Positions 28,647 to 64,000 of a stretch of 64,000 bases of DNA are shown here, one piece after another. How positions within the stretch are numbered: the first letter of the stretch is position 1; every line of letters begins with the position of its first letter. A program made the translations under genes and the position numbers. The DNA is from Cladocopium goreaui (taxonomy: Eukaryota > Sar > Dinophyceae > Suessiales > Symbiodiniaceae): positions 721,172-785,171 of the forward strand of contig CAMXCT020000324.1 of assembly GCA_947184155.2 (NCBI GenBank), in the 5' to 3' direction. The notes beneath the pieces were generated by a model. That model was not told the origin of the DNA and searched no databases. It was given only the letters and a program-made list of their open reading frames with translations.

Positions 28647-29885
28647 GGGGCTGAGACATGCAGGAACATCACAGCATTTGCATTGACAGTATAAGAACAA
28701 AGTGGAAAGGAACAGAAGAACGGAAATTGGAAAGGAATATGTGCAATTACTTGGAAACCTTATCGCCAAGTCCCGCCTTGTCCTTGTCCTTCTTCTCTTC
28801 CTCAAGGCGCTTCTGCACCCGCTTCTGCTGCTCCTCTTCACCTCGTGGCCACATCCGTAGCAATATTACGGGTCGAAAAAATCATTGCTGGAGCCGAAGT
28901 CAACAGCTTGAAGATGCTTGAAGATGCTCGGAGTAGTGTTTTCCGTTCAGCTGCGGTTTCACTTTGCAGACCAGGCTTACTGGGCATCTGGCCCTTCTGC
29001 ACATAGTTGCCCGAAAAGCCATTTGCAATGGATGGGACGAACTTCTGCCAATTCTGGCACAGGGAAGCAGCTGCTTTCTGACACCGACTATAAGGTTTGG
29101 TAGACCATCGGCTGCCAAAGCTCATCGTAGATGGCAAGTACGGACAAACAAGTATTGAAAAAATGCACAAATGTTGAAGCTGGTTTACTTAAGTTTACTT
29201 CTAGCTTCGGCTCCTCTATCCTCAGATCCAACAGGCCAGCCAAACGACTTTCTGCTCCGGCTGCTCAGGCTGCTCTGGCTGCTGAGGTTGCTGAGGTTGC
29301 TGAGGTTGTGGCTTCTGTTGTGGCCTTAGGGGCAGTCCAAATCTGATCCAAAGCTTACAACTTCCAACTGCGATAGCACTAAGTGAGCGGAAGCGACAGA
29401 TTGAAAGAACTGCAAAATTGCTGCGAAGCCTGTTGACAACATTTGCCTGTGACACGCTCTTCTCGCTGTGGTTTTGTTTGTGGCAACTATCAGATACTAT
29501 GAATCCGGATGCAGAGTACTGATGAGTACTGTGTCTGTGTATCTTGCATATCTCGCATGCCAAGCAGCTGCTCCCCCATGAAACCCAGATTCCTTGGCAG
29601 GGCAGTCTTTATCGGAACACTTGGACGAGCCACAAGTTCAAAACAAAAAAGACATCACAGCATTCAGATTGTTCAGCATTCCCTTGGCTAATAGAAGGGA
29701 CGGCCATGAATCCATCAGAATTTCTCAAGGACAGTCGCTTCATCATGCATGCAACAAGCCGAGTCTGCAGGAGCTCCTCCTCTTTCTGGCGGAGTTCACT
29801 GGTTTCTGTGCAGCTTGAAACTAAGACACAGGCTGTGCGAAGAACATAGCAGGATGCTTCTTCTCGTCCTTGCAGTGCACATCAG
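28647..29885. repeat. Segmental duplication, copy 2 (1.24 kb)
   Basis: Second copy of 26132-27370, in direct orientation. The gap between copies is 1.28 kb and contains the spaced repeats and the minisatellite. Sequence after the right edge differs completely between the copies. Confidence 0.95.
28747..29334 (-). CDS. 3' exons of PEQ/WQKYVP cassette gene, copy 2
   Basis: Same exons as at 26232-26819: Pro-Glu-Gln exon 29252-29334, W-Q-K-F-V-P exon ending 29053, charged C-terminal exon 28747-28841. The few differences from copy 1 seen by eye fall mostly outside the called exons, so both copies could be spliced. This copy lies between copy 1 and the CRAL-TRIO gene. Whether it is a second gene end or a duplicated remnant cannot be told from sequence alone. 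Confidence 0.45.
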
Positions 29886-38356: not shown

Positions 38357-41300
38357 TTTTTTCACCCAGAGACTCTTCACCCAGAAACCCTTCTTGCACA
38401 TACTTTTCACCCATATACTTTTCACCCAGAGACTCTTCACCCAGAAACTCTTATTGCACAGACTTTTCACCCAGAAACTCTTCTTGCACATACTTTTCAC
38501 CCATATACTTTTCACCCAGAGACTCTTCACCCAGAAACTCTTCTTGCAAATACTTTTCACCCACATACTTTTCACCCATAGACTCTTCACCAAGAAACTC
38601 TTCTTGCACATACTTTTCACCCATATACTTTTCACCCAGAGACTCTTCACCCAGAAACTCTTCTTGCACATACTTTTCACCCATATACTTTTCACCCAGA
38701 CACTCTTCACCCAGAAACTCTTATTACACAGACTTTTCACCCATATACCTTTCACCCACAGACTCTTCACCCAGAAACCATTCTTGCACATACTTTTCAC
38801 CCATATACTTTTCACCTAGACACTCTTCTTGCACCAATTTTTCACCCATATTTTTTCACCCAGAGACTCTTCACCCAGAAACTCTTCTTGCACATGTTTT
38901 TCACCCATATACTTTTCACCCAGAGACTCTTCACCCAGAAACTCTTCTTGCACATACTTTTCACCCAGAAACTCTTCACCCAGAAACTCTTCTTGCACAT
39001 ACTTTTCACCCATATACGTTTCATCCAGAGACCCTTCACTCAGAAACTCTTCTTGCACATACTGTTCACCCTTTTCATCCAGAGACTCTTCACCCAGAAA
39101 CTCTTCTTGCACATACTTTTCACCCAGACACTCTTCTTGCACCAATTTTTCACCCATATTTTTTCACCCAGAGACTCTTCACCCAGAAACTCTTCTTGCA
39201 CATGTTTTTCACCCATATACTTTTCACCCACAGACCCTTCACCCAGAAACCATTCTTGCACATACTTTTCACCCATATACTTTTCACCAAGAAACTCTTC
39301 TTGCACATACTTTTCACCCATATACTTTTCACCCAGAGACTCTTCACCCAGAGACTCTTCACCCAGAAACTCTGCTTGCATAGATTTTTCACCCAGAGAC
39401 TCTTTACCCAGAAACTCTTCTTGCACATACTTTTCACCCAGAGATTCTTCACCCAGAAACTCTTCTTGCACATACTTGTCACCAATACACTTTTCACCCA
39501 GAGGCTCTTCACCCAGAAACTTGTCTTGCACATACTGTTCACCCATGTACGTTTCATCCAGAGACTCTTCACCCAGAAACTCTTCTTGCACATACTTTTC
39601 ACCCATATACTTTTCACCCAGAGACTCTTCACCCAGAAACTCTTCTTGCACATACTTTTCACCCAGAGACCCTTCACCCAGAAACTCTTCTTGCACATAC
39701 TTTTCACCCATATACTTTTCACCCAGAGACTCTTCACCCAGAAACTCTTCTTGCACATATGTTTCATCCATATACTTTTCACCCAGAGACTCTTCACCCA
39801 GAAACTCTTCTTGCACATACTTTTCACCCATATACTTTTCACCCAGAGACTCTTCACCCAGAAACTCTTCTTGCACATACTTTTCACCCAGAAACTCTTC
39901 ACCCAGAAACTCTTCTTGCACATACTTGTCACCAATATACTTTTCACCCATAGACTCTTCACCCAGAAACTCTTCTTGCACATACTTTTCACCCATATAC
40001 TTTTCACCCAGAGACTCTTCACCCAGAAACTCTTCTTACAAATACTTTTCGCCCATAGACTCTTCACCCAGAAACTGTTCTTGCACATACTTTTCACCCT
40101 TTTCATCCAGAGACTCTTCACCCAGAAACTCTTCTTGCACATACTTTTCACCCATATACTTTTCACCCAGGGACTCTTCACCCAGAAACTCTTCTTTGCA
40201 CATACTTTTCACCCAGGAAACTCTTCTTGCACATACTTTTCACCATTACTTTCACCCAGGACTTACCCAAGAAAAACTCTTCTTGCACATTTACTTTCAA
40301 CCAGGAAACTCTTCTTGCACGAATTTTTTCACCCATATACTTTTCACACAGAGACTCTTCACCCAGAAACTCTTCTTGCAAATACTTTTCACCCAAATAC
40401 TTTTCACCCAGAGACTCTTCACCCAGAAACTCTTCTTGCACATACTTTTCACCCAGAGACTCTTCACCCAGAAACTCTTCTTGCACATACTTTTTCACCC
40501 ATATACTTTTCACCCAGAGACTCTTCACCCAGAAACTCTTCTTGCACATTACTTTTCACCCATATACTTTTCACCCAGAGACTCTTCACCCAGAAACTCT
40601 TCTTGCACATACTTTTCACCCATATACTTTTCACCCAGAGACTCTTCACCCAGAAACTCTTCTTGCACATACTTTTCACCCATATACTTTTCACCCAGAG
40701 ACTCTTCACCCAGAAACTCTTCTTGCATATACTTTTCACCCAGAAACTCTTCACCCAGAAACTCTTCTTGCACATACTTTTCACCAATATACGTTTCATC
40801 CAGAGACCCTTCACTCAGAAACTCTTCTTGCACATACTGTTCACCCTTTTCATCCAGAGACTCTTCACCCAGAAACTCTTCTTGCACATACTTTTCACCC
40901 AGACACTCTTCTTGCACCAATTTTTCACCCATATTTTTTCACCCAGGGACTCTTCACCCAGAAACTCTTCTTGCACATGTTTTTCACCCATATACTTTTC
41001 ACCCACAGACCCTGCACCCAGAAACCATTCTTGCACATACTTTTCACCCATATACTTTTCACCAAGAAACTCTTCTTGCACATACTTTTCACCCATATAC
41101 TTTTCACCCATAGACTCTTCACCCAGAGACTCTTCACCCAGAAACTCTGCTTGCATAGATTTTTCACCCAGAGACTCTTTACCCAGAAACTCTTCTTGCA
41201 CATACTTTTCACCCAGAGATTCTTCACCCAGAAACTCTTCTTGCACATACTTGTCACCAATACACTTTTCACCCAGAGGCTCTTCACCCAGAAACTTGTC

Positions 41301-42572
41301 TTGCACATACTGTTCACCCATGTACGTTTCATCCAGAGACTCTTCACCCAGAAACTCTTCTTGCACATACTTTACACCCATATACTTTTCACCCAGAGAC
41401 TCTTCACCCAGAAACTCTTCTTGCACATACTTTTCACCCAGAAACTCTTCTTGCACATGCTTTTCACCCATATACTTTTCACCCAGAGAATCTTCACCCA
41501 GAAACTCTTCGTGCACATACTTTTCATCCATATACTTTTCATCCAGAGACTCTTCACCCAGAAACTCTTCTTGCACATACTTTTCACCCATATACTTTTC
41601 ACCCAGAGACTCTTCACCCAGAAACTCTTCTTGAGACTCTTCACCCAGAAACTCTTCTTGCACATACTTTTCACCCATATACTTTTCACCCAGAGACTCT
41701 TCACCCAGAAACTCTTCTTGCACATACTTTTCACCCATATACTTTTCACCCAGAGACTCTTCACCCAGAAACTCTTCTTGCACATACTTTTCACCATATA
41801 CTTTTCCACCCAGAGACTCTTCACCCAGAAACTCTTCTTGCACATACTTTTCACCCATATACTTTTCCCAGAGACTCTTCACCCAGAAACTCTTCTTGCA
41901 CCCATATACTTTTCACCCAGAGACTCTTCACCCAGAAACTCTTCTTGCACATACTTTTCACCCTTCCAGAGACTCTTCACCCAGAAACTCTTCTTTTGCA
42001 CTACGTTTCATCCAGAGACTCTTCACCCAGAAACTCTTCTTGCACATACTTTTCACCCAGAGACTCTTCACCCAGAAACTCTTCTTGCACATACTTTTCA
42101 CCCTTTTCATCCAGAGACTCTTCACCCAGAAACTCTTCTTGCACATACTTTTCACCCATATACTTTTCACCCAGAGACTCTTCACCCAGAAACTCTTCTT
42201 GCACATACTTTTGACCCAGAAACTCTTCTTGCACTAATTTTTCACCCATATACTTTTCACCCAGAGACTCTTCACCCAGAAACTCTTCTTACAAATACTT
42301 TTCACCCATAGACTCTTCACCCAGAAACTGTTCTTGCACATACTTTTCACCCATATACTTTTCACCCAGAGACTCTTCACCCAGAAACTCTTCTTGCACA
42401 TACTTTGCACCCATATACTTTTCACCCAGGGACTCTTCACCCAGAAACTCTTCTTGCACATACTTTTCACCCAGAAACTCTTCTTGCACATACTTTTCAC
42501 CCATATACTTTTCACCCAGAGACTCTTCACCCAGAAACTCTTCTTACAATTTCTTTTCACCCACATCGCTCA
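38357..42572. repeat. 4.2-kb higher-order satellite, 60 bp = 4 x 15 bp
   Basis: The basic 60-bp unit is four related 15-mers in fixed order: ACTTTTCACCCATAT, ACTTTTCACCCAGAG, ACTCTTCACCCAGAA, ACTCTTCTTGCACAT. Units occasionally drop one or two 15-mers, keeping the 15-bp register, while a few indels near 40195-40330 and 41630-42000 break it. Because 15 and 60 are multiples of three and the consensus lacks stops, several frames on both strands stay open for hundreds of codons. Those are not supported as genes. A block around 38990-39600 is repeated at 40765-41375 (offset 1775 bp) with shared rare variants such as ACCAATTTTTCACCC. Confidence 0.95.
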
Positions 42573-50301: not shown

Positions 50302-52453
50302 TTAAGCATTGCCAGCCACGAACTTGCATTTCAACGACTCAAAGCAAGCTGAAGCTTCCACAGATTGATCACAACGTCCAGTCAACATAGGGTGGTAAGC
50401 TCCCCTAGAAGGAAAGTCGCTGATATTAGCTTCTGTAGGAACTCGAGCAAACCAAAGACAAAGGTTGTTGTCAGCCTCGCGGTTGAGATGATATTCCATC
50501 AACCACGAAGCCACAAAACTCCCTCCAGTGCCACGTATCAAAGAAAATCTCACCCCATCGTTGTCTCCAAAGCAAACTTGTAGGCCACCCTCATGCACTA
50601 GCCCAAAAATCCAAGGCCAGTACTGCAGCACACAGTTCCAAGTCATAAATGATCGTATGCTTCTTGTCCGCTCCGAAGACAACGCATGTATCCTTTTCCA
50701 AAGGGATACCAAACCAAGCAACACACTTGCCCAAATTATCGCAAAGAACTGCGCCTAGGCCTCCAGACTTTGTTTCCGGCTCATAGGCAGCATCACAGTA
50801 AAGAAACCACTCAACAAGAGGTTTTGCACTTACCTCTCTTGGTCGTCCATTGCATAGGCGGTGCATCATCATAGTCAATGAAGTTACCAATTCAAAAGGC
50901 AGTTTCGTGCCACGCCCATACGCATGCTCTGACAATTGTTTGAGTAGCAGAGCACCCAAACGGCCATGCAAATAGGAGTCCGCAAACCCCAACTTCCCAC
51001 GCAACACAAGCGCTGATTGCTTTCCCAGTGAACCAGCATCCAAAGTCGCATTGATCAATGTCTTAAGGTCCTGAATCCTTTGTTCAGTGTTTTGGATTCT
51101 CAATATGCTCTCACCTGACAAGCTCAGGTCGAACTCCACACCCAGTGCTTTGCATACAACATCAAATGAGGTGCACTTCTTTCCTTCTTTTGCAAATTGC
51201 CAACCCGTCAGTAAAAAGATCAGCTCCATTGAATTGCGCGCTGAATCCACACAGCTGGGCCTTGAGGCCAGAATGTAGTCATCGTAAAAGTTTGTTGTCA
51301 ATAGGTACAGCGCACGGGCAGCAAGAGCATACAAGGACCTGGACAACCTGAGGAAACTGTAAACGCTATGTGTTGCACCAAAAGGGAACGTAACCAGTTG
51401 ATAAACTTCAGCACAATCCCTGTCGCAGTTGTAGATGCTGAAGTAGGAGTAACACAAATGGTCCTCCCTGATGGGGACTTGTCTGTAGGCTGACTTCAAG
51501 TCATAAGTCTTGGCAACCAGTTTGCAATCCAAGCCAGCTTCCCCACATTGTTGAAAGAACTCACGCACCACTGCAGCAAAAGTATCAACCATATGCAAAT
51601 CAACCTTGTTGCTGGTGGCCGCTGTGTCGTTAATTCCAGAGATCGAGTAATCGTCTATCATCCTTGTCTTGGACCCCTGCACAAGAGGGAACCTCCTTGA
51701 AACAACACAGCCATCTGGAACACACTCAAAGGGGCCTCTGGCCCATCCCAGCTTTACCTCTTCTTTTGTCTCTTCCAGCAACTGCCGGTCCACTGCCGCA
51801 TCACCTGATGACCTGCATGAGGCCAAAATGGCCTGGTTCCGTTTTGCAGCGTCGCCTTGCAGTTGTGGCAACGTTAACAAACAAGGCTTGTAGCACTCCT
51901 CAAACGCACATGACTTTGGAATTTCCCCTGCCAAAGGGGACCCACAACGCAAGAGCTCAAGGACCTCCATGTCCTCATATTCTATACTCTCCAACATCTC
52001 TTGGGTCAGCAAGAGCCTTTTGCACGCAGTGGTTGTCCTGACATGAGCAGGCCGCTTTGCAGCATCTTCTTTTTCCGCTTGTTCCAGTTCTTTAGCACGT
52101 CGTAGCCATCGCCTGCACCAGTGCATCCTGTATTCCACCAAGGTCTTGTCAGACCATTCAACGTGCTTCGCAATAGCTTCCTTCAAGTCCTTTGGCACTG
52201 CGTGGTTTTGTTTTGCAGGATGACCCAAAAGACAGGCCTTGTGAATAAATTGCTCACACTCCCAAGGCAACCCAAAAACAACTTTGTAACTCCACATGCA
52301 CTCTTTGTCTCTCTTTCTCTTGTTTTGTTGGGACCCTTCAGCACCCCCATGAAACTCAGTCTCAACAAAAGTGACACCCACCTTGTAAGCCCCGGGCAGT
52401 TTGGTCAGAAATACTTTCTGACCAAACTCCTTCTTTCTAACAATCCATCTCAA
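50302..52453 (-). pseudogene. Retroelement reverse transcriptase/RNase H, one frameshift
   Basis: The 5' frame (52453-50591) gives about 620 residues. A Lys/Glu-rich N-terminal region leads into RT: R264-M-I-D-D-Y, motif A Y-D-L-K-S-A-Y with D318, motif B F-P-F-G-A near 356-360, motif C F-Y-D-D-Y with D391-D392. RNase H follows with D554 (Y-C-D-A-A) and E606 (D-L-E-L-C). The frame then stops. The missing end of RNase H (G-D-N-D-G-V-R, and W-F-A-R-V-P-T-E-A-N-I-S-D-F-P-S-R) continues in the next frame, ending at 50302. The switch lies at a T5/G3 run at 50603-50612, so it is either a one-base mutation or a sequencing error. The enzyme would copy RNA into DNA and remove the RNA strand. The layout resembles DIRS/Ngaro-type elements. 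There is no Met at the frame start; the 5' part crosses the 293-bp repeat. Confidence 0.85.
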
Positions 52454-52663
52454 AGGCCGGTATTCCTTCTAAACCCATCTTTCTCAATTTCTCGTTGGGT
52501 AATACTTACCCTTAAAATCGGATGACGGACTTTATAGCAGTCTTCCTTTTTATCTCCTTCACTTAATTGGACGGGTGCTCGAGTTCTGGTCGAGGGAGGT
52601 GTCTCCGGCAACTTCTTCGCTGTCCCAGTACGTGAGACCGAAGCGCCTTCACTTGTACCCCCC
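52371..52663. repeat. 293-bp direct repeat A, copy 1
   Basis: By eye identical to 53267-53559 (offset 896 bp). Copy 1 continues directly into the RT gene; copy 2 is followed on the RT-proximal side by the inverted repeat block. It includes two hairpins, a 14-bp-arm one at 52398-52428 and a 6-bp-arm one at 52497-52511. Confidence 0.95.
52398..52428. other. Perfect hairpin, 14-bp arms around TAC
   Basis: AGTTTGGTCAGAAA, then TAC, then its exact reverse complement. It is repeated at 53294-53324 in the second A copy and is the longest member of the hairpin family described in the findings. Confidence 0.95.
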
Positions 52664-52682
52664 CTAGGTGCGGGCGGGTGGG

Positions 52683-53267
52683 AAACCTTGCTTTGAAGGT
52701 ACCCAGCTTGGGCCAGCAGTTGCTGGTCATCATCCCATTCGATGAGAAGATATCCTCTTCCAGTGGACCATGGTAATAGTATTGGTGATTCCAGCATGTT
52801 CCGGTGAGGAAACTTTAGGGTAATACGTACCCAAGAGGGAAATGCATTCCCGGATAAATCAAATAGGGAAATTCATTCCCCAAAGCATTCGTAAATAACC
52901 GACATGGGCCATGGGTTTGAATTGTTCCAAGTTTGGGTTTGTCATTTTTCGCCGCAGGGTGATCATCTGGAGGAAACACATTCCTCCGCAGCGAAGGTCG
53001 ACGTACCGACCGTACGATGTAACGTAGGGAAATACTTTCCCCTAAGTGGCGATGTTTCGAGTTTGGGATTGCTCTTTTGTTGCAAGGCGATCATTTACCT
53101 GGAGGAAACACATTCCTCCGCAGCGAAGGTCAACGCACCGACCGTACGATGTAACGTAGGGAAATACTTTCCCTGATGGCAGGAAGTGTTGCCAAATACT
53201 TTGGCAACATTCCAAGGCGGAGCTCCGTCGTTGGCTGTCCCACTTCGATGGACATGTCCACCCCGCG
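52683..53267 (-). repeat. ~585-bp inverted repeat B, left copy
   Basis: Reverse complement of 59588-60171 with very few differences (for example CGCCACTTAGG versus CACCACTAGG). Inside are two tandem copies of a ~130-bp subunit (52915-53047 and 53048-53174), each with GGAGGAA-ACACA-TTCCTCC and GGGAAA-TAC-TTTCCC hairpins. Further hairpins lie at 52818-52832, 52837-52851, 52866-52880 and 53187-53209. The block sits between the two A repeats. Confidence 0.95.
53187..53209. other. Perfect hairpin, 10-bp arms around TAC
   Basis: TGTTGCCAAA, TAC, then TTTGGCAACA. Its arms share only the AAA/TTT next to the centre with the other hairpins of the block. Confidence 0.95.
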
Positions 53268-53559
53268 TGACACCCACCTTGTAAGCCCCGGGCAGTTTGG
53301 TCAGAAATACTTTCTGACCAAACTCCTTCTTTCTAACAATCCATCTCAAAGGCCGGTATTCCTTCTAAACCCATCTTTCTCAATTTCTCGTTGGGTAATA
53401 CTTACCCTTAAAATCGGATGACGGACTTTATAGCAGTCTTCCTTTTTATCTCCTTCACTTAATTGGACGGGTGCTCGAGTTCTGGTCGAGGGAGGTGTCT
53501 CCGGCAACTTCTTCGCTGTCCCAGTACGTGAGACCGAAGCGCCTTCACTTGTACCCCCC
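53267..53559. repeat. 293-bp direct repeat A, copy 2
   Basis: Second A copy; hairpins at 53294-53324 and 53393-53407. On its upstream side (minus sense) it adjoins the end of the RNase H fragment at 53581. Confidence 0.95.
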
Positions 53560-53580
53560 TCTTCAACGAACGTCTTCGCG

Positions 53581-54591
53581 TCACCACGGTCCAATCAAGT
53601 CAGCCCCTTTGGACTTCTTTGCGGATGGCAATGACTTGATCATGCCTTCCTTCCTCTTCCTGCGGAGTTCCTTGACTTCGTCGTAGAGCCCGCTTCCTTG
53701 CTCCAACAACTCTTTGAATTGTTCCTCCAAAAGGTCCTCGGGCTTGACCTCGACTCGTCTCTTGGGGTCGAAGCTACTAAAGTCCCCGTTGGTCAATGCA
53801 TCCGCCTCCCTGTTCTGAAGCCGAGGGAGCCAGTCCAGGCGTAGCTCCAGATCCTTGCAATGAAGCGTCCAGGCCAATTGCATCAATACGACGCATAAGG
53901 GGAACTTCGTCGTGAGGAATCTCGAGATCAGGTGCCGGTTTCCCAGATTGTCCGTCCCTGCCGAGAGGTGGTACTTCCTCGAGGCCGCCTGTTGTGGGGG
54001 AAACGCCACCACCGACGCCAATGTGCCTAAAAGTTCCAGAGAGGCTATGGCCCGGTAGGGCTCTCCTGACTCGAATACCCACGGTGCACTGGTCCTGTCC
54101 AGCTTCACCGAGAACCACCTGCACTTGCCTCGGTCTGGGGAATCGCTGCATGACCACCCTCCGAGCACAACTGTCTCTCCTTCGGCCTTGGCATCTGACC
54201 TGAAGGCGTGGTCCCCTTCATCTTCAATCCGCGGCCGGACCTTCGTACGGGCCACTTCCGCGACAAGTGTCCTTCTCAGGAACGTGAGGATCATCAGAAC
54301 TGCTGCAGGCACCTGAAGCGTGTTGCAGTGGTCCACCGCCGTTACCCAGCTATAAAGTGGCCCTAGCAACGGCTTCAAGTGGGGGAACGCGGCCATCATA
54401 AAGGACAGTCTCCCCAATGCTGAACGAAATTCGTCCACCCTGACAACTTTGTTGGCCAACACCTTCGCCATCCAGTCGCGTGCCCACCTGAGCCTCCTCT
54501 CGGTCATGCCCAGTTCGCACCTTGCGATGTCAATCTGAAACCCCACCCACTCCGAGCGGGTTCCTCCCTTGCACTTCCCCCAACTAAAGGG
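53581..54591 (-). CDS. Retroelement RT thumb plus RNase H, 5' end lost in gap
   Basis: 336 residues remain, starting at the assembly gap with P-F-S-W-G-K-C-K-G-G and W-V-G-F-Q-I, the part of RT that follows the catalytic Y-x-D-D box. Then comes a thumb-like helical region (L-G-M-T-E-R-R-L-R-W-A-R-D; L-G-R-L-S-F). RNase H follows, with the four acids visible as S-D-A-K, A-S-L-E-L-L, G-T-D-N-L-G and N-R-E-A-D-A-L. The C-terminus is a Lys/Glu-rich tail ending G-A-D-L-I-G-P-W. No stop or frameshift in the visible part. It supplies the portion missing from the plus-strand RT at 57519-59587 but on the opposite strand. It is not the same family as the RT at 50302-52453, whose RNase H motifs differ. 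Confidence 0.85.
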   Translation of the reverse strand, partial: PFSWGKCKGGTRSEWVGFQIDIARCELGMTERRLRWARDWMAKVLANKVVRVDEFRSALGRLSFMMAAFPHLKPLLGPLYSWVTAVDHCNTLQVPAAVLMILTFLRRTLVAEVARTKVRPRIEDEGDHAFRSDAKAEGETVVLGGWSCSDSPDRGKCRWFSVKLDRTSAPWVFESGEPYRAIASLELLGTLASVVAFPPQQAASRKYHLSAGTDNLGNRHLISRFLTTKFPLCVVLMQLAWTLHCKDLELRLDWLPRLQNREADALTNGDFSSFDPKRRVEVKPEDLLEEQFKELLEQGSGLYDEVKELRRKRKEGMIKSLPSAKKSKGADLIGPW

Positions 54592-54691
54592 NNNNNNNNN
54601 NNNNNNNNNNNNNNNNNNNNNNNNNNNNNNNNNNNNNNNNNNNNNNNNNNNNNNNNNNNNNNNNNNNNNNNNNNNNNNNNNNNNNNNNNNN
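54592..54691. other. Assembly gap, 100 N
   Basis: Exactly 100 unknown bases, the usual placeholder for a scaffold join of unknown size. It falls within the RT reading frame on the left and the hairpin array on the right, so the true distance and even the adjacency of the two sides are uncertain. Confidence 1.
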
Positions 54692-55462
54692 AGGGAGGAG
54701 CTCCGTGTCAAGGCTCCCTTCTCGTCTAAAATAGAGGCGCAACGACAAAGAGTCTCTGTTCTCCTCTAAAATAGAGGCATTCCGTCCTCCGCGACAGAAA
54801 CTCCGTTCTGCTCTAAAATAGAGGCAGTAGCTCAGTTTGACGGCTCCCTTCTCATCTAAAATAGAGGCCGTCGCTCTGTTTGAAGGCTTCGTTCTCCACT
54901 AAACTAGTCCAGAGATTCCGTTCTGCTTTAAAATAGAGGCAGCAGCTCCTCCCTTCTCCTGTGAAATAGAGGGAGGAGCTCCGTGTCAAGGCTCCCTTCT
55001 CCTCTAAAATAGAGGCGCAACGACAAAGAGCCTCTGTTCTCCCCTAAAATAGAGGCATTCCGTCCTCCGCGACAGAGATTCCGTTCTGCTCTAAAATAGA
55101 GCCGTCAAACTGAGCTACTGCCTTTTTTAGAGCAGAACGGAGTCTCTGTCGCGGAGGACGGAATGCCTCTATTTTAGAGGAGAACAGAGGCTCTTAGTAG
55201 TTGCGCTTCTATTTTAGAGGAGAAGGGAGCCTTGACACGGAGCTACTCCCTCTATTTTAGAGGCGAAGGGAGCCTTCAAACTGAGCTACTGCCTCTATTT
55301 TAGAGCAGAACGGAATCTCGGGACTATTTTAGAGGAGAACGAAGCCTTCAAACAGCGCTACTGCCTCTATTTTAGAGGAGAAGGGAGCCGTCAAACTGAA
55401 CTACTGCCCCTTTCTTAGAGCAGAACGGAGTCTCTGTCGCGGAGGACGGACTGCCTCTATTT
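54692..55462. repeat. Array of CCTCTAAAATAGAGG hairpins with long palindrome
   Basis: At least a dozen copies of a 15-mer, CCTCTA-AAA-TAGAGG, or slightly degenerate forms, spaced 35-75 bp by sequences such as CGCAACGACAAAGAGCCTCTG and CATTCCGTCCTCCGCGACAG. The first half (to about 55090) reads CTAAAATAG and the second half (from about 55118) is its reverse complement, CTATTTTAG. The halves pair as one large palindrome: 54975-55092 against 55118-55240 match at roughly nine bases in ten. Confidence 0.9.
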
Positions 55463-57132
55463 TAGTGGAACGCAGGGGGGGGGAAGTTTAAATGAAGAAG
55501 TAGAATGGAGACAATGGTATAGTGGAACGCAGGGGGGGGAAGTTTAAATAAAGAAGTATAATGGTGACCATGGTTTAGTGGAACGCAGGGGAGGGGAAGT
55601 TTAAATAAAGAAGTAGAATGGAGACAACGGTATAGTGGAACGCAGGGGGGGGTAAGTTTAAATAAAGAAGTATAATGGTGACAATGGTTTAGTGGAACGC
55701 AGGGGGGGGTAAGTTTAAATAAAGAAGTAGAATGGTGACAATGGTTTCGTGGAACGCAGGGGGGGGGAAGTTTAAATAAAGAAGTATAATGGTGACAATG
55801 GTTTAGTGGAACGCAGGGGGGGAAGTTTAAATGAAGAAGTAGAATGGAGACAATGGTATAGTGGAACGCAGGGGGGGGAAGTTTAAATAAAGAAGTAGAA
55901 TGGTGACAATAGTATAGTGGAACGCAGGGGGGGGAAGTTTAAATAAAGAAGTAGAATGGAGACAATATTATAGTAGAGACGCAGGGGGGGGGAGTTTTAA
56001 ATAAGAAGTCGAATGAGACAAATGGTTAGTGGGAACGCAGGGGGGGGTAAGTTTTCAAAAAGAAGTAGAATGGTGACAATGGTTTAGTGGAACGCAGGGG
56101 GGGGTAATTTTAAATAAAGAAGTATAGTGGTGACAATGGTTTAGTGGAACGCAGGGGGGGGTAAGTTTAAATACAGAAGTAGAATGGAGAAAATGGTTTA
56201 GTGGAACGCAGGGGGGGGTAAGTTTAAATACAGAAGTAGAATGGAGAAAATGGTTTAGTGGAACGCAGGGGGGGGTAAGTTTAAAAAAAGAAGTAGAATG
56301 GTGACAATGGTTTAGTGGAACGCAGGGGGAGGTAAGTTTAAATAAAGAAGTAGAATGGAGACAACGGTATAGTGGAACGCAGGGGGGGGTATTTAATAAG
56401 AGTTATAAATGGTTGTACCATGGTTTAGTGTAAGCGCTTGGGGGGGTAATTTAAAAAATAAAGAATATAATGGTTACAATGTTAAGTGAAACCCGGGGGG
56501 GGACTTTGAATATAAAAAATAACGGAATTATATGTGACAATGGTTTAGTGGGAACGCAGGGGCGAAGTTTTTAAATGGAAGAAGTAGGAAGTTGGAGACA
56601 TGGTATAGTGGGAACGCAAGGGGGGAAGTTTAAATAAAGAAGTATATGGTTACAAATGGTAACTAGTGGAACGCAGGGGGGGGGAAGTTTAAATAAAGAA
56701 GTATAATGGTGACAATGGTATAGTGGAACGCAGGGGAGGGGAAGTTTAAATAAAGAAGTAGAATGGAGACAATGGTATAGTGGAACGCAGGGGGGGGTAA
56801 GTTTAAATAAAGAAGTAGAATGGTGACAATGGTTTAGTGGAACGCAGGGGGGGGTAAGTTTAAATAAACAAGTATAATGGTGACAATGGTTTAGTGGAAC
56901 GCAGGGGGGGGTAAGTTTAAATAAAGAAGTAGAATGGAGACAATGGTTTCGTGGAACGCAGGGGGGGGTAAGTTTAAATACAGAAGTAGAATGGAGAAAA
57001 TGGTTTAGTGGAACGCAGGGGGGGGTAAGTTTAAATAAAGAAGTAGAATGGCGACAATGGTATAGTGGAACGCAGGGGGGGGGGAAGTTTAAATAAAGAA
57101 GTAGAATGGAGAAAATGGTTTAGTGGAACGCA
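55463..57132. repeat. ~57-bp minisatellite with G-run, about 30 copies
   Basis: Unit: TAGTGGAACGCAG, a run of 5 to 9 G, AAGTTTAAATAAAGAAGTA, then [GT]AATGG[AT]GACAATGGT. Alternating unit variants (GAATGGAGA/TAATGGTGA) suggest a two-unit higher-order pattern in places. Units between about 55970 and 56650 are ragged, with many single-base gains and losses near homopolymers, which may be sequencing error. Confidence 0.95.
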
Positions 57133-57263
57133 CAAACTCGTGCGCGTGCGCGCGTGAGACTAACAACGCGTCTGGCGCGTGCGCGCGTGAGACCAAAAAC
57201 GCGTGCTCAGGTGAGGCCTCCTTGCGCGTGCGCACGTGAGCCAAAAAACGCGTGCGCACGTGA
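57133..57263. repeat. GTGCGCGTGCGCGTGAG repeats, alternating purine/pyrimidine
   Basis: Four loose copies of a ~35-bp unit containing GCGTGCGCGCGTGAG and AAAAACGCGT. Long CG/TG alternation is the classic composition for left-handed DNA. It ends at an in-frame TGA (57261-57263) just before the gag-like frame begins. Confidence 0.85.
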
Positions 57264-57518
57264 GGCCCAGACCCTCAGAAAGGCAAGGGGAAGCAGACCC
57301 AATCCAAAGGAAAAGGGAAACAAAAAGGGAAACCACAATGGGTGACCGAAACACGTAACCCAGACGGATCCACCAAAGCCCTGTGTATGCGATTCCAGCT
57401 CGGCAAGTGCAAGTTATCGGACTGCAAATTCAGTCATCAGTGCGCATACCCGACAGCAGCGGGACATGCCTGCGGAGGAAGCCACGGCGCAATGGAGCAC
57501 AAACAAATTCCTCACTGA
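57264..57518 (+). pseudogene. Retroelement Gag C-terminus with CCCH zinc finger
   Basis: 84 codons between two TGA stops. A Lys/Gly/Gln-rich basic stretch (G-K-G-K-Q, K-G-K-P-Q-W-V-T-E-T-R) leads to C-M-R-F-Q-L-G-K-C-K-L-S-D-C-K-F-S-H, a C-x7-C-x4-C-x3-H zinc finger. Then comes a second Cys/His set (C-A-Y-P, C-G-G-S-H, E-H). Fingers of this form bind RNA and occur at the end of Gag-like regions in dinoflagellate retroelements. The N-terminal Gag is missing, replaced by the repeat tract. The frame is the same as the methyltransferase-RT frame that follows; only the TGA at 57516 separates them. Confidence 0.75.
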
Positions 57519-59587
57519 CTCCCTTCGCAGGAATACAGGCCTATCAATGTGGATGTTGACATGCAGGAGGAATCCAAAGCAACGGTTTCAGATTCCTCAG
57601 GTATCACAGTTTCAACTCAGATGCAGACTGCAATAGATCAGGGTCCTGGCAATTCAGACCCACCATTGCCTAGTTTCACACCATCTCCTGAGGGGAAGGT
57701 TCCCCAAGTTCCGCATTTTGCGGCAGCGAATACATTTGGCAATGTCAAAACTGTGGGACCCAATCGAATTTTTCTGGACATTTGTGCAGGGGCTACAAGA
57801 CCATTATCTCGAGCATGTTTACGCAGAGGCAAAAGAGTTTTATCATTTGATATTTTGATTCAATCAGCGATGAATTTGCTTGATGATGTAGAATATGAAC
57901 AACTCCTGCGGCTGTGCGCCAGCGGCTCTGTAGCTTATGCTGGTGCAAGACCTAGTTGCGGCCAGTATTCAAGACTCAAATTGCGCAAAGGTGGTCCTCC
58001 CCCAGTGAGAACACCGGATCACCTAGATGGAGTGCCTGGTATCTCTCCTTCTGACCTCTTGAAGGTCCAAGAGAGTCACACATTACTTTCCAGATGTATT
58101 CAATGTTTAATTTTGGTTTTTCAAGCAGGAGGGCACGTGCACCTAGAGCAACCTCCATCAGCCATGTCCTGGCTGGAACCGGAAGTCAAAGCCTTTCTCC
58201 TTCTCATTGGTGCATTTTGCATTAACCTTCCGGCCTGCGCATTTGGATGGAGCATTCATAAAGCTTGGATGTTTGCTACAAGTTTCTCAGCCTTACAGAA
58301 GCTTGGATCAATTTGTCCGCATTCGCAATCGGACAATGAATCTATTGCAGGACGCCACAATGCAGCAGGCGATTTTTTGAGCAAAGATACAGCATGTTAC
58401 CCTGATTCATTGGCCGATGCATTTGCAGAATTGGTTGATCCGCTTTTGTCTGACCACCATGCCGATCTAGCATGGCCTTTTCCCAATGCAATTCTACCCA
58501 CCAAAGGGTATGATGATTTTCCTAAAAGCTCTGAAGACGGTGGCGGCCTTTTCTCCCTGCCGGACTGGAGTCAAAGCAATCGGCAGGCAACAGATTCTCT
58601 TCACAATTTGCGTGTTAAATGGCGACAAATGATTTTGGATCAAAGATTGGATCGCCAAATATTGGCCTATGTTGCTCAGGGACCATCACCGGACCCACCA
58701 TTTTCTGAGGAGACGCTGCAACCATTTATGAACGAACTTAATCATTTCATTCGACTGCATGGGCTGACTCCGGACTGGTCGGTACGTGAACATCAACCCA
58801 TGCGATTGGGCATTCTGGCGGCACTGAGCACGATCATGGGCGACAAAGACACCACATTATTTGGTGAGCTACAAGCCGGAGTCAGCACTGGATTCAACCA
58901 TGACATACCATTGTCACAATGTTTTCCTCGTAATGATCGACAAGTGGACACCACCACACTGTTGTCCGCGCACATGTGCAATTGGGCCTCCGCTGAAAGC
59001 GATTTAGAACTTACCCGATCACTGGTGGAAGAAGAAATATCGCGCGGCTGGGTCGACAAATTTGATGGAGATCTCTCTGATGCGCAAGCTGCATTTCCCA
59101 CTGGAGTGGCCATCGGCAAACTTGGAGTCGCCACCAGTGACTCCAGACCACCACGTTTAGTTGTAGACAATAGCATATGCGGCCTCAATTCGAGGTGCCA
59201 TATACCTGAGAGATCAACGCTGCCGACCGCAAAGGATGTTTTGCGTAGCTACCCTCTCCGAGGTTGCACTGATGATTTCATGGCCATGTCTCTTGACATC
59301 AAGTCCGCACATAAATGTGTGGTCTTACGTGAAAGTGAAAGAGGATTGGTCGGCTTCACGCTGGATGGCGTCCTGTATTTTTACAAAGTCGCTCCCTTCG
59401 GGGCATCCTTCTCGGCAGCGTGGTGGAGTCGAGTAGGTGGATACCTACTACGTCTGATGCACCATACTATATGGATCCCACATTGTGGACTGGTGTTCGT
59501 GGATGACTACTTGTTCTACCAAATCAAATCTATGATGCCGGTCACGGCTGCACTCCTTTGTATTTTGGTATTATGTTGTCGAATTCC
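57519..59587 (+). pseudogene. Cytosine-methyltransferase-like domain fused to reverse transcriptase, truncated
   Basis: Open from just after the TGA at 57516-57518. Residue numbers count from the GTG at 57549. Residues 75-102 (F-L-D-I-C-A-G-A-T-R-P-L-S to V-L-S-F-D-I) match the SAM-binding motif I of C5 cytosine methyltransferases. A-R-P-S-C137-G-Q-Y-S fits motif IV, where Cys is the nucleophile. H-L-E200-Q-P-P-S corresponds to the motif VI glutamate region. A C-P-H then G-R-H-N-A-A-G-D-F-L-S, Y-P segment (256-285) follows. The RT has R-L-V-V-D-N-S (536-542), motif A S-L-D583-I-K-S-A-H, motif B A-P-F-G-A and motif C F-V-D652-D653-Y. At codon 680 the RT runs into the inverted repeat B at 59588, losing its thumb and RNase H. 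The remaining open frame to 59912 is repeat sequence. I infer DNA self-methylation during reverse transcription as the original role. The copy is dead as it stands. Confidence 0.75.
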
Positions 59588-60171
59588 CGCGGGGTGGACA
59601 TGTCCATCGAAGTGGGACAGCCAACGACGGAGCTCCGCCTCGGAATGTTGCCAAAGTATTTGGCAACACTTCCTGCCATCAGGGAAAGTATTTCCCTACG
59701 TTACATCGTACGGTCGGTGCGTTGACCTTCGCTGCGGAGGAATGTGTTTCCTCCAGGTAAATGATCGCCTTGCAACAAAAGAGCAATCCCAAACTCGAAA
59801 CATCACCACTAGGGGAAAGTATTTCCCTACGTTACATCGTACGGTCGGTACGTCGACCTTCGCTGCGGAGGAATGTGTTTCCTCCAGATTATCACCCTGC
59901 GGCGAAAAATGACAAACCCAAACTTGGAACAATTCAAACCCATGGCCCATGTCGGTTATTTACGAATGCTTTGGGGAATGAATTTCCCTATTTGATTTAT
60001 CCGGGAATGCATTTCCCTCTTGGGTACGTATTACCCTAAAGTTTCCTCACCGGAACATGCTGGAATCACCAATACTATTACCATGGTCCACTGGAAGAGG
60101 ATATCTTCTCATCGAGTGGGATGATGACCAGCAACTGCTGGCCCAAGCTGGGTACCTTCAAAGCAAGGTTT
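59588..60171 (+). repeat. ~585-bp inverted repeat B, right copy (inserted in RT)
   Basis: Starts CGCGGGGTGGACATGTCC immediately after RT codon 680 and ends CTTCAAAGCAAGGTTT, 40 bp before the tyrosine recombinase frame. Same content as 52683-53267 in opposite orientation. Near its right end it keeps an open segment reading L-I-E-W-D-D-D-Q-Q-L-L-A-Q-A-G-Y-L-Q-S-K, which also occurs in the left copy but joins a different downstream sequence there. No obvious target duplication flanks it. Confidence 0.95.
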
Positions 60172-60211
60172 GGGGTAGATCGTCCAATGCAATTGGACTT
60201 CGTGTGACGCT

Positions 60212-62560
60212 ATGGAAGATTTGGCACCGCGGAGGGGGTTGAGAGCCCGATGGCATGCCATGGCGACGGCTTTGGAGAGAAGTCGGAATCAGGAAACCCC
60301 AGCCTTGGATGGAGACAGTTGTGGGGGCTGTGAGAGCTTGGGTCCCGTCACCCCTACAGAAGATTTGTTTGGAGATGGACAAGAGGCTGAGGCCGAACGT
60401 CAGGTCCGGCAGAGGTTGGCTGATTTGGATCGAGGGATCCAATGTGCAGTGGAACATGTCACGCCGGAGGAGCTGGAGACCTATTGGGCTGCACTGCCCG
60501 TCACGGTCAAGGAGTTGGTCATGATGAATGGTGAGGTGTCAGCTGACCTCCTTGCCTTTCTGGCTGACACCGACGAGGACCGCATGGGCCTTTTGATGCA
60601 GCATGGATGTAATGAGGCAGAGGTCCGAGACAAGGCGACGGTCCTCGAGGCCCTGCAGCTGGCGGCAGAGGAGAAAGCAGCCCGGTTGAGGAGGAATAGG
60701 GTGGCAAAGAGAGGAGTCCAGATGGCCTTGGACTTGGCCGAAAAAACAAAGATGAGGAGGCGTGAGGGCACTGGAGAGCTCATGGAGGGTGAGATGCCCA
60801 CCAAGAGCTGGCTCGAAAAACACTCGGGGGGGATCATGTTGCCGAAGAGGCGGAGAGCTACTGACCCAGGTCTTGAAGAGGACGAGGTGGAAGCGGTCAA
60901 GGCCCGGGAACGTCAACAATGGCACAAGGAGGCAGAAAGGGTCGTCGAGTTGCTGAAGGACAACCTGGACCTGCCAATACTCAGAGGAGCAGAGGAGTCC
61001 ATCGACCCCGAGGAGTTCATGAGGACAGCGATCGGTGGCTACAGAGCCTCAACCTTGAGGAAGAGGCTGCGGGAATGGAAAAAATATTTGACCTGGCTGG
61101 AGATAGTTCACCAGGTCAGGTGGCCATCGCGCAGGGCTCATGCCATTGACTACCTGGTTGAGCTCAGATTGACAGATGCGCCTCCCACAGTGCCGCAATC
61201 CTTTTCTACTACACTGGCCTTTTTTGAGAAGGCAGGTGGCATCGATAAAGATGCAATGGTGTCAATGGATGTCACCTTCAAACGGGCATTAGATATGACA
61301 AACAAAGAGATGGAAACCAAGAAACCTGCCAAGAAGCAGGCGCCCTTGCTGCCAATCAAGGTCATTGCATCCATGGAGATGTTAGTGGTCAGTGAGGCCA
61401 ATGCCACCTTTGTCAGGTTTGCAGCATGGTGCAAGTTGGTGAAACTCTGGACAGCCTCCAGGACGGATGATCTCCAGGGAATCTCATTGAGAAGCATGAG
61501 GTTCACAAAGGCTGGACTACACGGAGTGTTCTGGAAAACCAAGGTGTCCGGGCCAGGGAAGAGGAACAAATTGCTCCCCTTCATGATCAGCAACAAAGTG
61601 AGCATCACTGGATTGCCTTGGCTGAAGACGGGCATGGAGATCCTCGAGGAGAAATATTGGTACCCGAGGGACTACTTGGTTCCCACGTACCCTTATGGAC
61701 TGGAAGGGTTGGAAGAGAAGCGCCCAGCCAACTACGATGACTTTGTGGTCCTCACAAGGGTCGTCTACTCCAAGTTGAAGGAGGTCTTCTATGAGGAAGG
61801 TCGTTGGGTAACTGGGCGTGGGCCCCTCTTACTCCCAGAGTTGTATAAGCTCTGGACGGAGCACTCCGAGAGAAACTGGATAGTGTCGCTGGCTGCAGCG
61901 TCCGGAGTGCCCAGGGAAGAACGCCAGATGCTGGGCCGATGGGCTGTGAAAGAAAGCGGGGACGAATACGTCCGATCAGCTCAGCGCATTGTTGCAAGGA
62001 TCCAATGCCTCCTGGAAAGACTCAGGTCGGACCGTGAGTGGGACTTGAGGCACGCGGGACTTGAGGAGGTAAGGGAGCACATCACCAAGGCGAACTACGA
62101 CGCCGACTCCATTAGGAGACAAATGGAAAAATTGGAGATGCCTGAGGTCTGGACTCCAGTTGGTTCAGATGGGACGTTCCTGGGCCTTATACGGAGGCCG
62201 GACGGCGTGAAGCCAGATGAAATGGGGCAGGACGTCCCTGAGCCAACGCAGGAGGACCTGCCGCCAATCCAAGAGCTCATGGAGGAGAGGGTCCAGGCAG
62301 ACGACATGGGCAGTGAAGAGGACGACATTGATGTGAAGGCAAAGTTCTTCGTGTCCATCAACGTCAGGAGCCGACATAGGAAGCTCCATATCTGGGGCAA
62401 ATGTGGGACAAAACCTGGACAAAACTTCTCAGCATATGAGCCCCACAACAGCTTGAAGGGCGTGAAGTTCAATTCGATTTGTGGGCACTGCTGGAAAGGC
62501 AAGGGCCCGCATGAAGATGAAGACAGCTCTACTACAACGAGCTCAAGTGACATGGACTGA
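60212..62560 (+). CDS. Tyrosine recombinase of a DIRS-like retroelement
   Basis: 782 residues, intact. An acidic/basic N-terminal region (to ~260) is followed by a core-binding helical domain (about 270-360; T-L-R-K-R-L-R-E-W-K-K-Y-L, then the phage-integrase-type W-P-S-R-R). The catalytic domain shows R417 in A-S-R-T-D-D-L, a beta-hairpin Lys at 442 or 444 (W-K-T-K-V-S-G), H551-S-E-R554, G575-R-W in place of the usual H/W, and the nucleophile candidate Y586 in G-D-E-Y-V-R. The C-terminal part has C731 and C757-x2-C760, a possible zinc site, ending in a Ser/Thr/Asp tail. Such recombinases insert a circular cDNA without making target duplications. The Met at 60212 is the first in frame; 40 bp upstream lies the end of repeat B. 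No stop or frameshift, so this ORF could still be functional. Confidence 0.85.
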   Translation: MEDLAPRRGLRARWHAMATALERSRNQETPALDGDSCGGCESLGPVTPTEDLFGDGQEAEAERQVRQRLADLDRGIQCAVEHVTPEELETYWAALPVTVKELVMMNGEVSADLLAFLADTDEDRMGLLMQHGCNEAEVRDKATVLEALQLAAEEKAARLRRNRVAKRGVQMALDLAEKTKMRRREGTGELMEGEMPTKSWLEKHSGGIMLPKRRRATDPGLEEDEVEAVKARERQQWHKEAERVVELLKDNLDLPILRGAEESIDPEEFMRTAIGGYRASTLRKRLREWKKYLTWLEIVHQVRWPSRRAHAIDYLVELRLTDAPPTVPQSFSTTLAFFEKAGGIDKDAMVSMDVTFKRALDMTNKEMETKKPAKKQAPLLPIKVIASMEMLVVSEANATFVRFAAWCKLVKLWTASRTDDLQGISLRSMRFTKAGLHGVFWKTKVSGPGKRNKLLPFMISNKVSITGLPWLKTGMEILEEKYWYPRDYLVPTYPYGLEGLEEKRPANYDDFVVLTRVVYSKLKEVFYEEGRWVTGRGPLLLPELYKLWTEHSERNWIVSLAAASGVPREERQMLGRWAVKESGDEYVRSAQRIVARIQCLLERLRSDREWDLRHAGLEEVREHITKANYDADSIRRQMEKLEMPEVWTPVGSDGTFLGLIRRPDGVKPDEMGQDVPEPTQEDLPPIQELMEERVQADDMGSEEDDIDVKAKFFVSINVRSRHRKLHIWGKCGTKPGQNFSAYEPHNSLKGVKFNSICGHCWKGKGPHEDEDSSTTTSSSDMD

Positions 62561-63032
62561 ACTGCAGTGAGTTGAAAACAAGGTTCATGGCGAGTAGAGT
62601 TGTCATGTGCATAGCTTGCATGATTGGGAAGGGTGCGGTTAAGTATTGACCAGGGAAACCCAGGGAACCCAAAGAAGAGTACTATGACAACACTGGGAAG
62701 GACTAAGCATTAGTCCAGTGAACCCGGTCCAAGCGATGGAGTAGCTTGGGTGGTACTCGTGACCCGGTAAAGCATTTACTAGGGGCAGTATGGGGAATTG
62801 ATGCGATTTCTCTGTCATGATGTGGAAGGAGCACAACGGGAAATTTGTGCATCCGAAGACCTGTGGGGTCAAGAGAAACACGGGCAGAGAAGTAACCAAG
62901 CATCATGTTGCATTTCTCCATGCAGTCACCTTTCCTAAGGGCAGGCTTGGGAACTTATAATGTGATGTAGTCACATTACATTGCATGACCCTAGTCGGAT
63001 ATCCGCACGCGGGTGGCGGGCCGTGCAGCCAT
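62561..63032. promoter_or_regulatory. Spacer between recombinase and gag-like ORF, hairpin-rich
   Basis: Four hairpins: GGTTAA-GTA-TTGACC (62637-62651, one G-T pair), GGACTAA-GCA-TTAGTCC (62700-62716), GTAAA-GCA-TTTAC (62767-62779) and TAATGTGA-TGTAG-TCACATTA (62958-62978). The first three keep the three-base centre and A/T neck of the hairpins in repeats A and B. The fourth has a five-base loop and sits about 55 bp before the gag-like start, a position suited to promoter or RNA-structure control, though that is only inference. Confidence 0.5.
62958..62978. other. Perfect 8-bp inverted repeat before gag-like ORF
   Basis: TAATGTGA and TCACATTA around TGTAG. Could be a binding site or an RNA hairpin in the 5' leader of the next ORF. 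Confidence 0.6.
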
Positions 63033-64000
63033 GCCCCTACTAGCGCTGACGGATGACGAGGTGGAGCGGGCCTTGGACCAGGCGGACTCTGACCTCAAAT
63101 ACTTGTTGTCAGAAGTCGGGGTGCCTGAAGATGTTCAAGCGGCACTTTATCATAGAGGCTTCACCTCTTTGAGGTTGTTCACGGGCATAGATGAAAGCAG
63201 AACAGAAGTGAGGGCCGCACTGAAGGCAGAGATAGGCCTGGACACTACCGCAAGCAATGCGGAAAGGCGATACACAGCCTTGGTTCTCAGTGCGTGGGAA
63301 ACAGCCAGGACCCAGCAAAGGTCAAATGATGAGTCCAGGGCTGAGGCCAGGACTGCTATGATCCCCCGGCCAGTGCCCATCAATGAGCACGCCATGCTGA
63401 GGGAGGCGCTGGAAGCCCATATTGGCAGGTTGAAGGACTACGAGGTGCCCTCCAAGAACCTTGTTGCGTCCAAGATGGACGACATCGAGACCAACATGCC
63501 AAGAGTCGAAGATTTACGGAACGTATCCTCAATGGAAGATGGAGAGGTCGACCTTTTGCAGGGCAACTTGGATGTAGCCACAGGGACATTTAAGATGAAG
63601 GCGGCCAGGAACACAGTGCAAATGCCCAAGACCCCAGAGGAGCTTCGATTGAGGCACAGAAGGCTGGGGGTTGCTTGGGAAATGGCCCGCACCAAACATC
63701 GCAACAGAGTTTGGCTCCAGGGGCACCTGATCGAGGCGTTTAGACAATTGTCGGACCATATATTAGGTCGGCATGTGTTTGGGCTAGCGCTCCCGCAAGA
63801 GCAAAAACCGAAATGGGAGATTGTCTTGAGTTACGAGCAAGAGATCAGGAAGAAGGCCTACCAATGGGTTAGGCAAGGAGACGTAGCCACTCTCGAAGAA
63901 GGCATCCTGCGAGGCATCAAGGACGCCGAGGTGATGAACCTCCACTTCGTAGTTCCAGTGACCACCAATGTGGCAACGAGTTCCTTTGGAGGAGGGGTTC
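63033..64000 (+). CDS. Gag-like N-terminal region of DIRS-like retroelement, runs off window
   Basis: Open for at least 322 codons to the window edge, no stop. Starts M-P-L-L-A-L-T-D-D-E-V-E-R-A-L; another in-frame ATG lies at 62985 and could be used. The sequence is helical and charged, with V-Q-A-A-L-Y-H-R-G-F-T-S-L-R-L-F, I-D-E-S-R-T-E-V-R-A-A-L-K, T-P-E-E-L-R-L-R-H-R-R-L-G and L-H-F-V-V-P-V-T near the edge. I recognise the style of dinoflagellate retroelement Gag-like polyproteins that later carry methyltransferase-like and RT domains, but no defined domain is visible in this part. It lies 472 bp after the recombinase ORF on the same strand, either as the next gene of the same element or the start of a second copy. 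Confidence 0.65.

Follow-up and report, generated by a model that had tools for sequence, protein, structure and literature searches.

Short hairpins that share one loop and differ in their arms are set out along the non-coding parts of two retroelements in the window, by which we mean the whole 64,000-nucleotide stretch of DNA analysed here, and it is very likely that they form a selected recognition array acting on the sense strand. The hairpins keep their positions between copies, changes in their arms are compensated, their loop has a single orientation, they are concentrated in non-coding sequence and they belong to one clade of YR elements.

Carrier elements and their layout

The genome around the window comprises 1.17 Gb. 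Two elements carry the hairpins of the window, element 1 on the minus strand and element 2 on the plus strand (Table 1), the latter having inserted into a third element, in its RT frame (57549-59584). The stretch 57371-59584 reads as the truncated RT frame of another YR-type element with a CCCH finger before it, interrupted by element 2. Copies of the repeats A and B flank the coding part as split direct repeats, an A-B-A block being seen at 52371-53559, and where a contig has two B copies in the same orientation their distance is mostly 7.9-8.2 kb, although C1168 has them 11.2 kb and C324 15.6 kb apart. Exact matches to the 33-nt terminus number 34 in the genome, with none for a reversed control, and we take this terminus to be the end of the element because two loci (L018 and L019) cease to be similar directly after it. 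The terminus pattern gave no matches in viral and prokaryote genome collections. It reads GGTGGA-CNNG-TCCATC, a potential 6-bp stem that is constant across 12 sequences, with the NN varying.

This layout fits that of the SymbioDIRS-Dnmt3 elements described in passages of PMC5890265. For RT, methyltransferase and recombinase the carrier offers sequence motifs and weak model matches, so that these functions are putative. In a nine-sequence alignment the YR ORF keeps the order R, HxxR, W, Y, with the second R replaced by H in one row and by another residue in a further one; it gave no match in Pfam or in a sequence search of the PDB. A PDB sequence search with Pol gave nothing useful and no RNase H model matched it. 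RVT_1 matched Pol at E values of 0.0022-0.11, below the curated cut-off, with YVDD, FVDD or FYDD read in the sequence, and the methyltransferase model PF00145 matched at an E value of 0.045, also below its cut-off, with PPCS read in the relative L043. The second ORF of L043 terminates in a CCCH finger (C-X8-C-X4-C-X3-H). As a similar finger lies upstream of the third element of the window (57371-57550), for which no hairpin array is known, such a finger is not confined to the clade of the array and is alone no predictor of one. Protein searches of viral contigs with YR and RT were unproductive.

Elsewhere in the window we observed a direct repeat of 1239 bases (26132-27370 and 28647-29885, 99.6% identical), a long, degenerate tandem array whose two strands both carry overlapping ORFs (38357-42563) and an array at 54692-57132 with units mostly ~43 nt apart and a large inverted repeat, its arms at 54762-54948 and 55283-55469, after which a 57-nt tandem array runs from ~55461.

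Table 1 Parts of the carrier elements and hairpins in the window
Feature	Position	Strand	Remarks
Element 1 Pol end	53584-54591	-	
Element 1 repeat A', inner copy	53267-53559	-	100% direct repeat with 52371-52663
Element 1 internal repeat B'	52683-53266	-	99% inverted repeat of 59585-60171; ends in 33-nt terminus 53234-53266
Element 1 repeat A', 3' terminal copy	52371-52663	-	100% direct repeat with 53267-53559
Element 2 5' repeat B'	59585-60171	+	99% inverted repeat of 52683-53266; terminus 59589-59621
Element 2 YR ORF	60212-62560	+	782 aa
Element 2 spacer 3' of YR ORF	62561-63012	+	
Element 2 second ORF, start	63013-63999	+	Gag-like
A' hairpin	52398-52428; second copy 53294-53324	-	14 bp, coding-sense loop GTA
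A' hairpin	52497-52511; second copy 53393-53407	-	6 bp, loop GTA
A' hairpin	52622-52638; second copy 53518-53534	-	One T.G pair, loop GTA
B' hairpin	52818-52832	-	Loop GTA, mismatch only at pair beside loop
B' hairpin	52837-52851	-	Loop GCA, mismatch only at pair beside loop
B' hairpin	52866-52880	-	Loop GAA, mismatch only at pair beside loop
B' hairpin	52969-52987; second copy 53101-53119	-	7 bp, loop GTG
B' hairpin	53027-53041	-	6 bp, loop GTA
B' hairpin 2	53158-53174	-	7 bp, loop GTA
B' hairpin 1	53187-53209	-	10 bp, loop GTA, orthologues covary
Element 2 B' hairpins, first four	59646-59668, 59681-59697, 59736-59754, 59813-59827	+	
Element 2 B' hairpins, last four	59867-59885, 59974-59988, 60003-60017, 60022-60036	+	
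Hairpin immediately upstream of YR start	60182-60198	+	7 bp, loop GCA
Spacer hairpins	62637-62651, 62700-62716, 62767-62779, 62958-62978	+	62637-62651 has T.G pair; 62700-62716 7 bp, 62767-62779 5 bp

Loop rule, occurrence and distribution

The first-pass annotation had listed seven hairpins, all of which exist at the places and with the stem lengths it gave, the observation being stronger than it was first described. Four looser hairpins it had added were also found, three of them in B' and mismatched beside the loop and one in the spacer with a T.G pair. The list was correct but incomplete, lacking the second A copy, the inverted B copy, the hairpin immediately upstream of the YR start, the spacer hairpin at 62958, the pair with loop GTG and the A' hairpin with a T.G pair. 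Its three centres TAC, GTA and GCA are present but reduce to one loop rule, TAC and GTA being the same centre on opposite strands, as are TGC and GCA; the TAC form appears in the window because element 1 lies on the minus strand. In the coding sense the loop of every listed hairpin is GTA or GCA, and GAA or GTG occurs in a few of the looser or additional ones.

Among 85 distinct hairpins from the leader, spacer and A', read in the coding sense, the loop is G-N-A in 67 and of another kind in 18, with T-N-C in none. Position -3 is A and position +3 is T throughout the 67, the middle base of the loop is a pyrimidine in 61 and position +2 is a pyrimidine in 59; the constant core is A-N-G-Y-A-Y-T and the pair beside the loop varies freely. 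Four A' copies have G-T-T-A or G-T-T-G as their loop. The 67 hairpins have 48 different 5' arms, and the earlier description of unrelated arms around a common core with pairing at each site is borne out. Template switching between the arms, which the first-pass annotation had offered as their maker, would make and keep such palindromes with no function, and according to passages of PMC8794818 the process does create and maintain RNA hairpins. Passages of PMC8604942 report that it also inverts the spacer, and both orientations would thus be expected, yet there is no reversed loop among the 85 hairpins; an origin by template switching is therefore unsupported and, with the fixed core, the non-coding places and the single clade also left unexplained by it, extremely improbable.

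The array lies in the non-coding parts of the element, namely B' at the 5' end, the spacer that follows the YR gene and A' at the 3' end, and the hairpins found in the window have G-N-A loops in 3/3 cases in the spacer and 2/2 in A'. Three element stretches (28 kb, of which 20.7 kb is ORF of at least 300 codons) contain 43 G-N-A hairpins outside ORFs and 8 inside, two of the latter being the hairpin near the YR start. The YR ORF has one G-N-A hairpin (shuffle mean 0.14). In L042 (1041-1067), L044 (8665-8693) and L030 the last part of the Pol ORF includes a hairpin with loop G-A-A and a stem of 9-12 bp, which encodes a kept peptide.

Ten 700-nt B' repeats contain 4, 7, 7, 7, 0, 7, 7, 5, 3 and 5 G-N-A hairpins, 52 in all, and no T-N-C hairpins; with 100 dinucleotide shuffles per repeat, the G-N-A means add up to ~0.55. 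The repeat with zero perfect G-N-A hairpins, that of L025, has mismatched ones. In positions 1-50000 of the window G-N-A hairpins stand at shuffle level (5 vs 5.2 expected) and T-N-C at 9 vs 4.6 expected (5 shuffles), so that the set differs from this part of the window. Since the same positions are also somewhat rich in hairpins overall (104 with any loop vs 74.8 in shuffles), it is the G-N-A class alone that sets the element apart.

The commonest hairpin, GGGAAAGYATTTCCC, has 42 matches in the genome and a reversed control none. Thirty-eight are in the element, 36 of the 42 having a terminus match at most 600 nt away on the same strand and two, on contig C1463, having one at ~8 kb; the other four are on terminus-free contigs, with 4.3 expected by our own arithmetic on equal base counts. 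The arms of GGGAAAGYATTTCCC with any loop occur at 143 places, and it is thus the loop and not the arms that is special. These counts bear on a possible role for an RNA-binding protein of the host, which would recognise the hairpins and so set translation, processing or stability of a polycistronic transcript. The leaders of the YR ORF and of the second ORF are full of hairpins, one of them directly upstream of the YR start, and the genome contains 172 exact copies (reversed control 0) of the 21-mer of the dinoflagellate spliced leader. A host signal would however be expected elsewhere too, which the matches of GGGAAAGYATTTCCC outside the element, at their chance number, do not suggest, and we regard reading by a host protein as rather improbable.

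Three other origins were rejected: chance or composition by the shuffles and genome counts, known RNA families by the absence of any Rfam match at gathering score in the window, and small hairpin transposons on the ground that the hairpins occupy orthologous places. A permissive Rfam search of one B' gave a single sub-threshold match, to a CRISPR repeat.

A search of the genome with the YR protein gave at least 127 matches. In the 15 scanned loci with YR identity of at least 79% there are 100 G-N-A and 2 T-N-C hairpins in 58.0 kb, with at least two G-N-A in each; in L056 and L057 the hairpins are in the spacer alone. The 15 scanned loci at 36-38% identity are without an array and contain 15 G-N-A and 46 T-N-C hairpins in 59.5 kb, 21 of their hairpins being a tandem repeat in L068 and 25 coming from eight near-identical loci. 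These loci speak against the earlier suggestion that the hairpins are a general feature of YR retroelements; among the scanned loci, all at 36% identity or above, the array is confined to one clade. In another YR clade the spacer of L061 (3058-3966) has a slight excess of triloops, 3 vs 0.28, with no common loop. The YR search had 1198 first-look candidates, because of which YR elements may be abundant in this genome.

Paired changes, strand and role

Structure and selection on pairing are well supported by aligned copies. Twenty-three distinct B' sequences are known, of which 16 entered the leader alignment with the window copy and five YR loci, giving 19 after removal of three duplicates; six copies of the window family and L025 were left out. 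The spacer alignment omitted L046 and L048, which are copies of L047, and covered the other 13 of the 15 close YR loci. In hairpin 1 of B' (12 sequences) 10 of 13 pairs are changed on both sides and 96.8% of cells are paired, compared with 32-58% in slid registers, and in L051 the arms are largely different and 13 bp pair.

Ten of the 25 aligned hairpin columns were selected after the alignments had been inspected, and rows lacking a G.A or G.G loop were dropped (0, 1, 4, 1, 0, 4, 1, 0, 0 and 2 per site). In this set 526/552 cells are standard pairs, with 30-52% in slid registers, and 27 of 66 pairs are changed on both sides, for which 500 shuffles gave a mean of 11.9 and a maximum of 18; double changes are absent at column 529, and pairing at column 465 reaches only 80%. 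A set picked by rule, comprising 17 of the 25 columns with no rows dropped, gave a weaker result in the same direction: 809/939 cells paired (shuffle maximum 755) and 44/110 pairs doubly changed (shuffle mean 25.7, maximum 35), which upholds the earlier proposal that selection keeps the pairing. In the spacer of L041, 89% identical, C-G stands at a T-A position of the 62958 hairpin of the window. The A' hairpins near the junction are paired in 14/15 copies with differing arms and the next one upstream is present in 8/15.

Counted in the coding sense, 20 distinct hairpins have an internal mismatch of G.T or T.G and 5 one of A.C or C.A (P 0.002, a value that related copies inflate), with 30 vs 33 in the background. 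Collapsing related copies by hand leaves ~14 vs 5 separate sites (P 0.03), and a stricter mismatch rule gives 17 of the G.T type vs 1 of the A.C type. The sense leader RNA folds further below its own shuffles than the antisense in 9/10 sequences, the exception being the window family where antisense folds better. The single loop orientation, the G.T bias and the sense folding therefore favour a single-stranded sense molecule, either RNA or sense cDNA, and this molecule is probably RNA.

The same features make it very unlikely that the palindromes are double-stranded DNA sites of a recombinase, as the first-pass annotation had also offered, or of a transcription factor. YR sites are inverted repeats around a spacer and to this extent resemble the hairpins, but the core sites of a recombinase have the same arms and here 48 different arms surround one loop. 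The recombinase reading is thus unsupported, since arms vary from site to site within one element and both loop and wobbles have a strand.

We also consider it unlikely that the hairpins act on single-stranded sense cDNA in replication, for example at the circle junction or at second-strand starts. G-N-A loops, and the G-N-N-A of some A' hairpins, are of the types named for very stable DNA minihairpins, reportedly described with GNA-type loops by Yoshizawa in 1997, and long stems flank the A'|B' junction, 7-14 bp upstream (14/15 copies) and 10-15 bp downstream. The stable DNA GNA motif however wants a C-G closing pair, and the closing pair here is A-T or a mismatch; DNA parameters give both strands about equal energy, and hairpins also lie far from the junction, in the spacer.

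As to protein partner and function, which we infer, our proposal is that repeated recognition hairpins on the element RNA are read by a Gag-like CCCH protein for RNA choice or packaging, a reading that is plausible from the sequence but put forward tentatively. At each site a stem of ~5-14 bp of free sequence would display the constant loop A-N-G-Y-A-Y-T, the loop being what the protein recognises and the stem being needed as support. The sites would act on a coding-sense single-stranded molecule, most likely the genomic RNA, and with many of them along one RNA the element could pick out its own RNA and package it for reverse transcription. The most probable reader would be the product of the second ORF, which is Gag-like and has a CCCH zinc finger; CCCH fingers are a class known for RNA binding, which makes this protein the first candidate. 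Of the options in the first-pass annotation RNA structure, with packaging among other roles, fits best. A possible but somewhat doubtful extension is a distributed address code, in which one-loop hairpins would label the whole length of the element's nucleic acid for a dedicated protein of the element. This protein would read them either on the RNA as it is packaged or on a circle of single-stranded sense cDNA, in which the recombination junction has the longest hairpins on either side. The DNA version, if true, would mean an unknown single-stranded DNA step in the replication of YR retroelements.

Comparison with known systems

To our knowledge, how DIRS-type retrotransposons choose their RNA and form circles is poorly understood. 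An array under covariation pinpoints nucleotides and a candidate protein, and lets RNA-level and DNA-level steps be separated. A limited literature search, covering titles and the starts of abstracts, found no description of hairpin arrays of this type in YR retroelements. SymbioDIRS-Dnmt3, as presented in passages of PMC5890265, is alike in its split repeats (A-coding-B-A-B), its dinoflagellate host, its Pol with methyltransferase, RT and RNase H and its separate tyrosine recombinase; the words "hairpin" and "inverted" are absent from the main text, and the passages covered do not describe hairpin arrays. The hairpins that passages of PMC8794818 ascribe to template switching likewise have perfect stems kept through paired changes, whereas the loop in the dinoflagellate element keeps one orientation and one sequence rule. 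The 5' RNA domain of Ty1, in passages of PMC5454406, is a retrotransposon 5' RNA structure that serves packaging and, in Ty1, dimerisation, but belongs to an LTR element and is a kissing-loop domain and not an array with one loop motif.

In kind the array appears closest to dispersed packaging signals, for example those of HBV as set out in passages of PMC7612645, in which one RNA carries numerous stem-loops that share a short loop motif but have different stems; many stem-loops, a shared loop motif and free stems are what we found in the element. The binder in HBV is the core protein and the motif RGAG, whereas here the motif is A-N-G-Y-A-Y-T, the binder is a candidate and the carrier is a YR retrotransposon. 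The array would bring to a cellular retrotransposon a concept, that of dispersed packaging signals, which comes from viruses.
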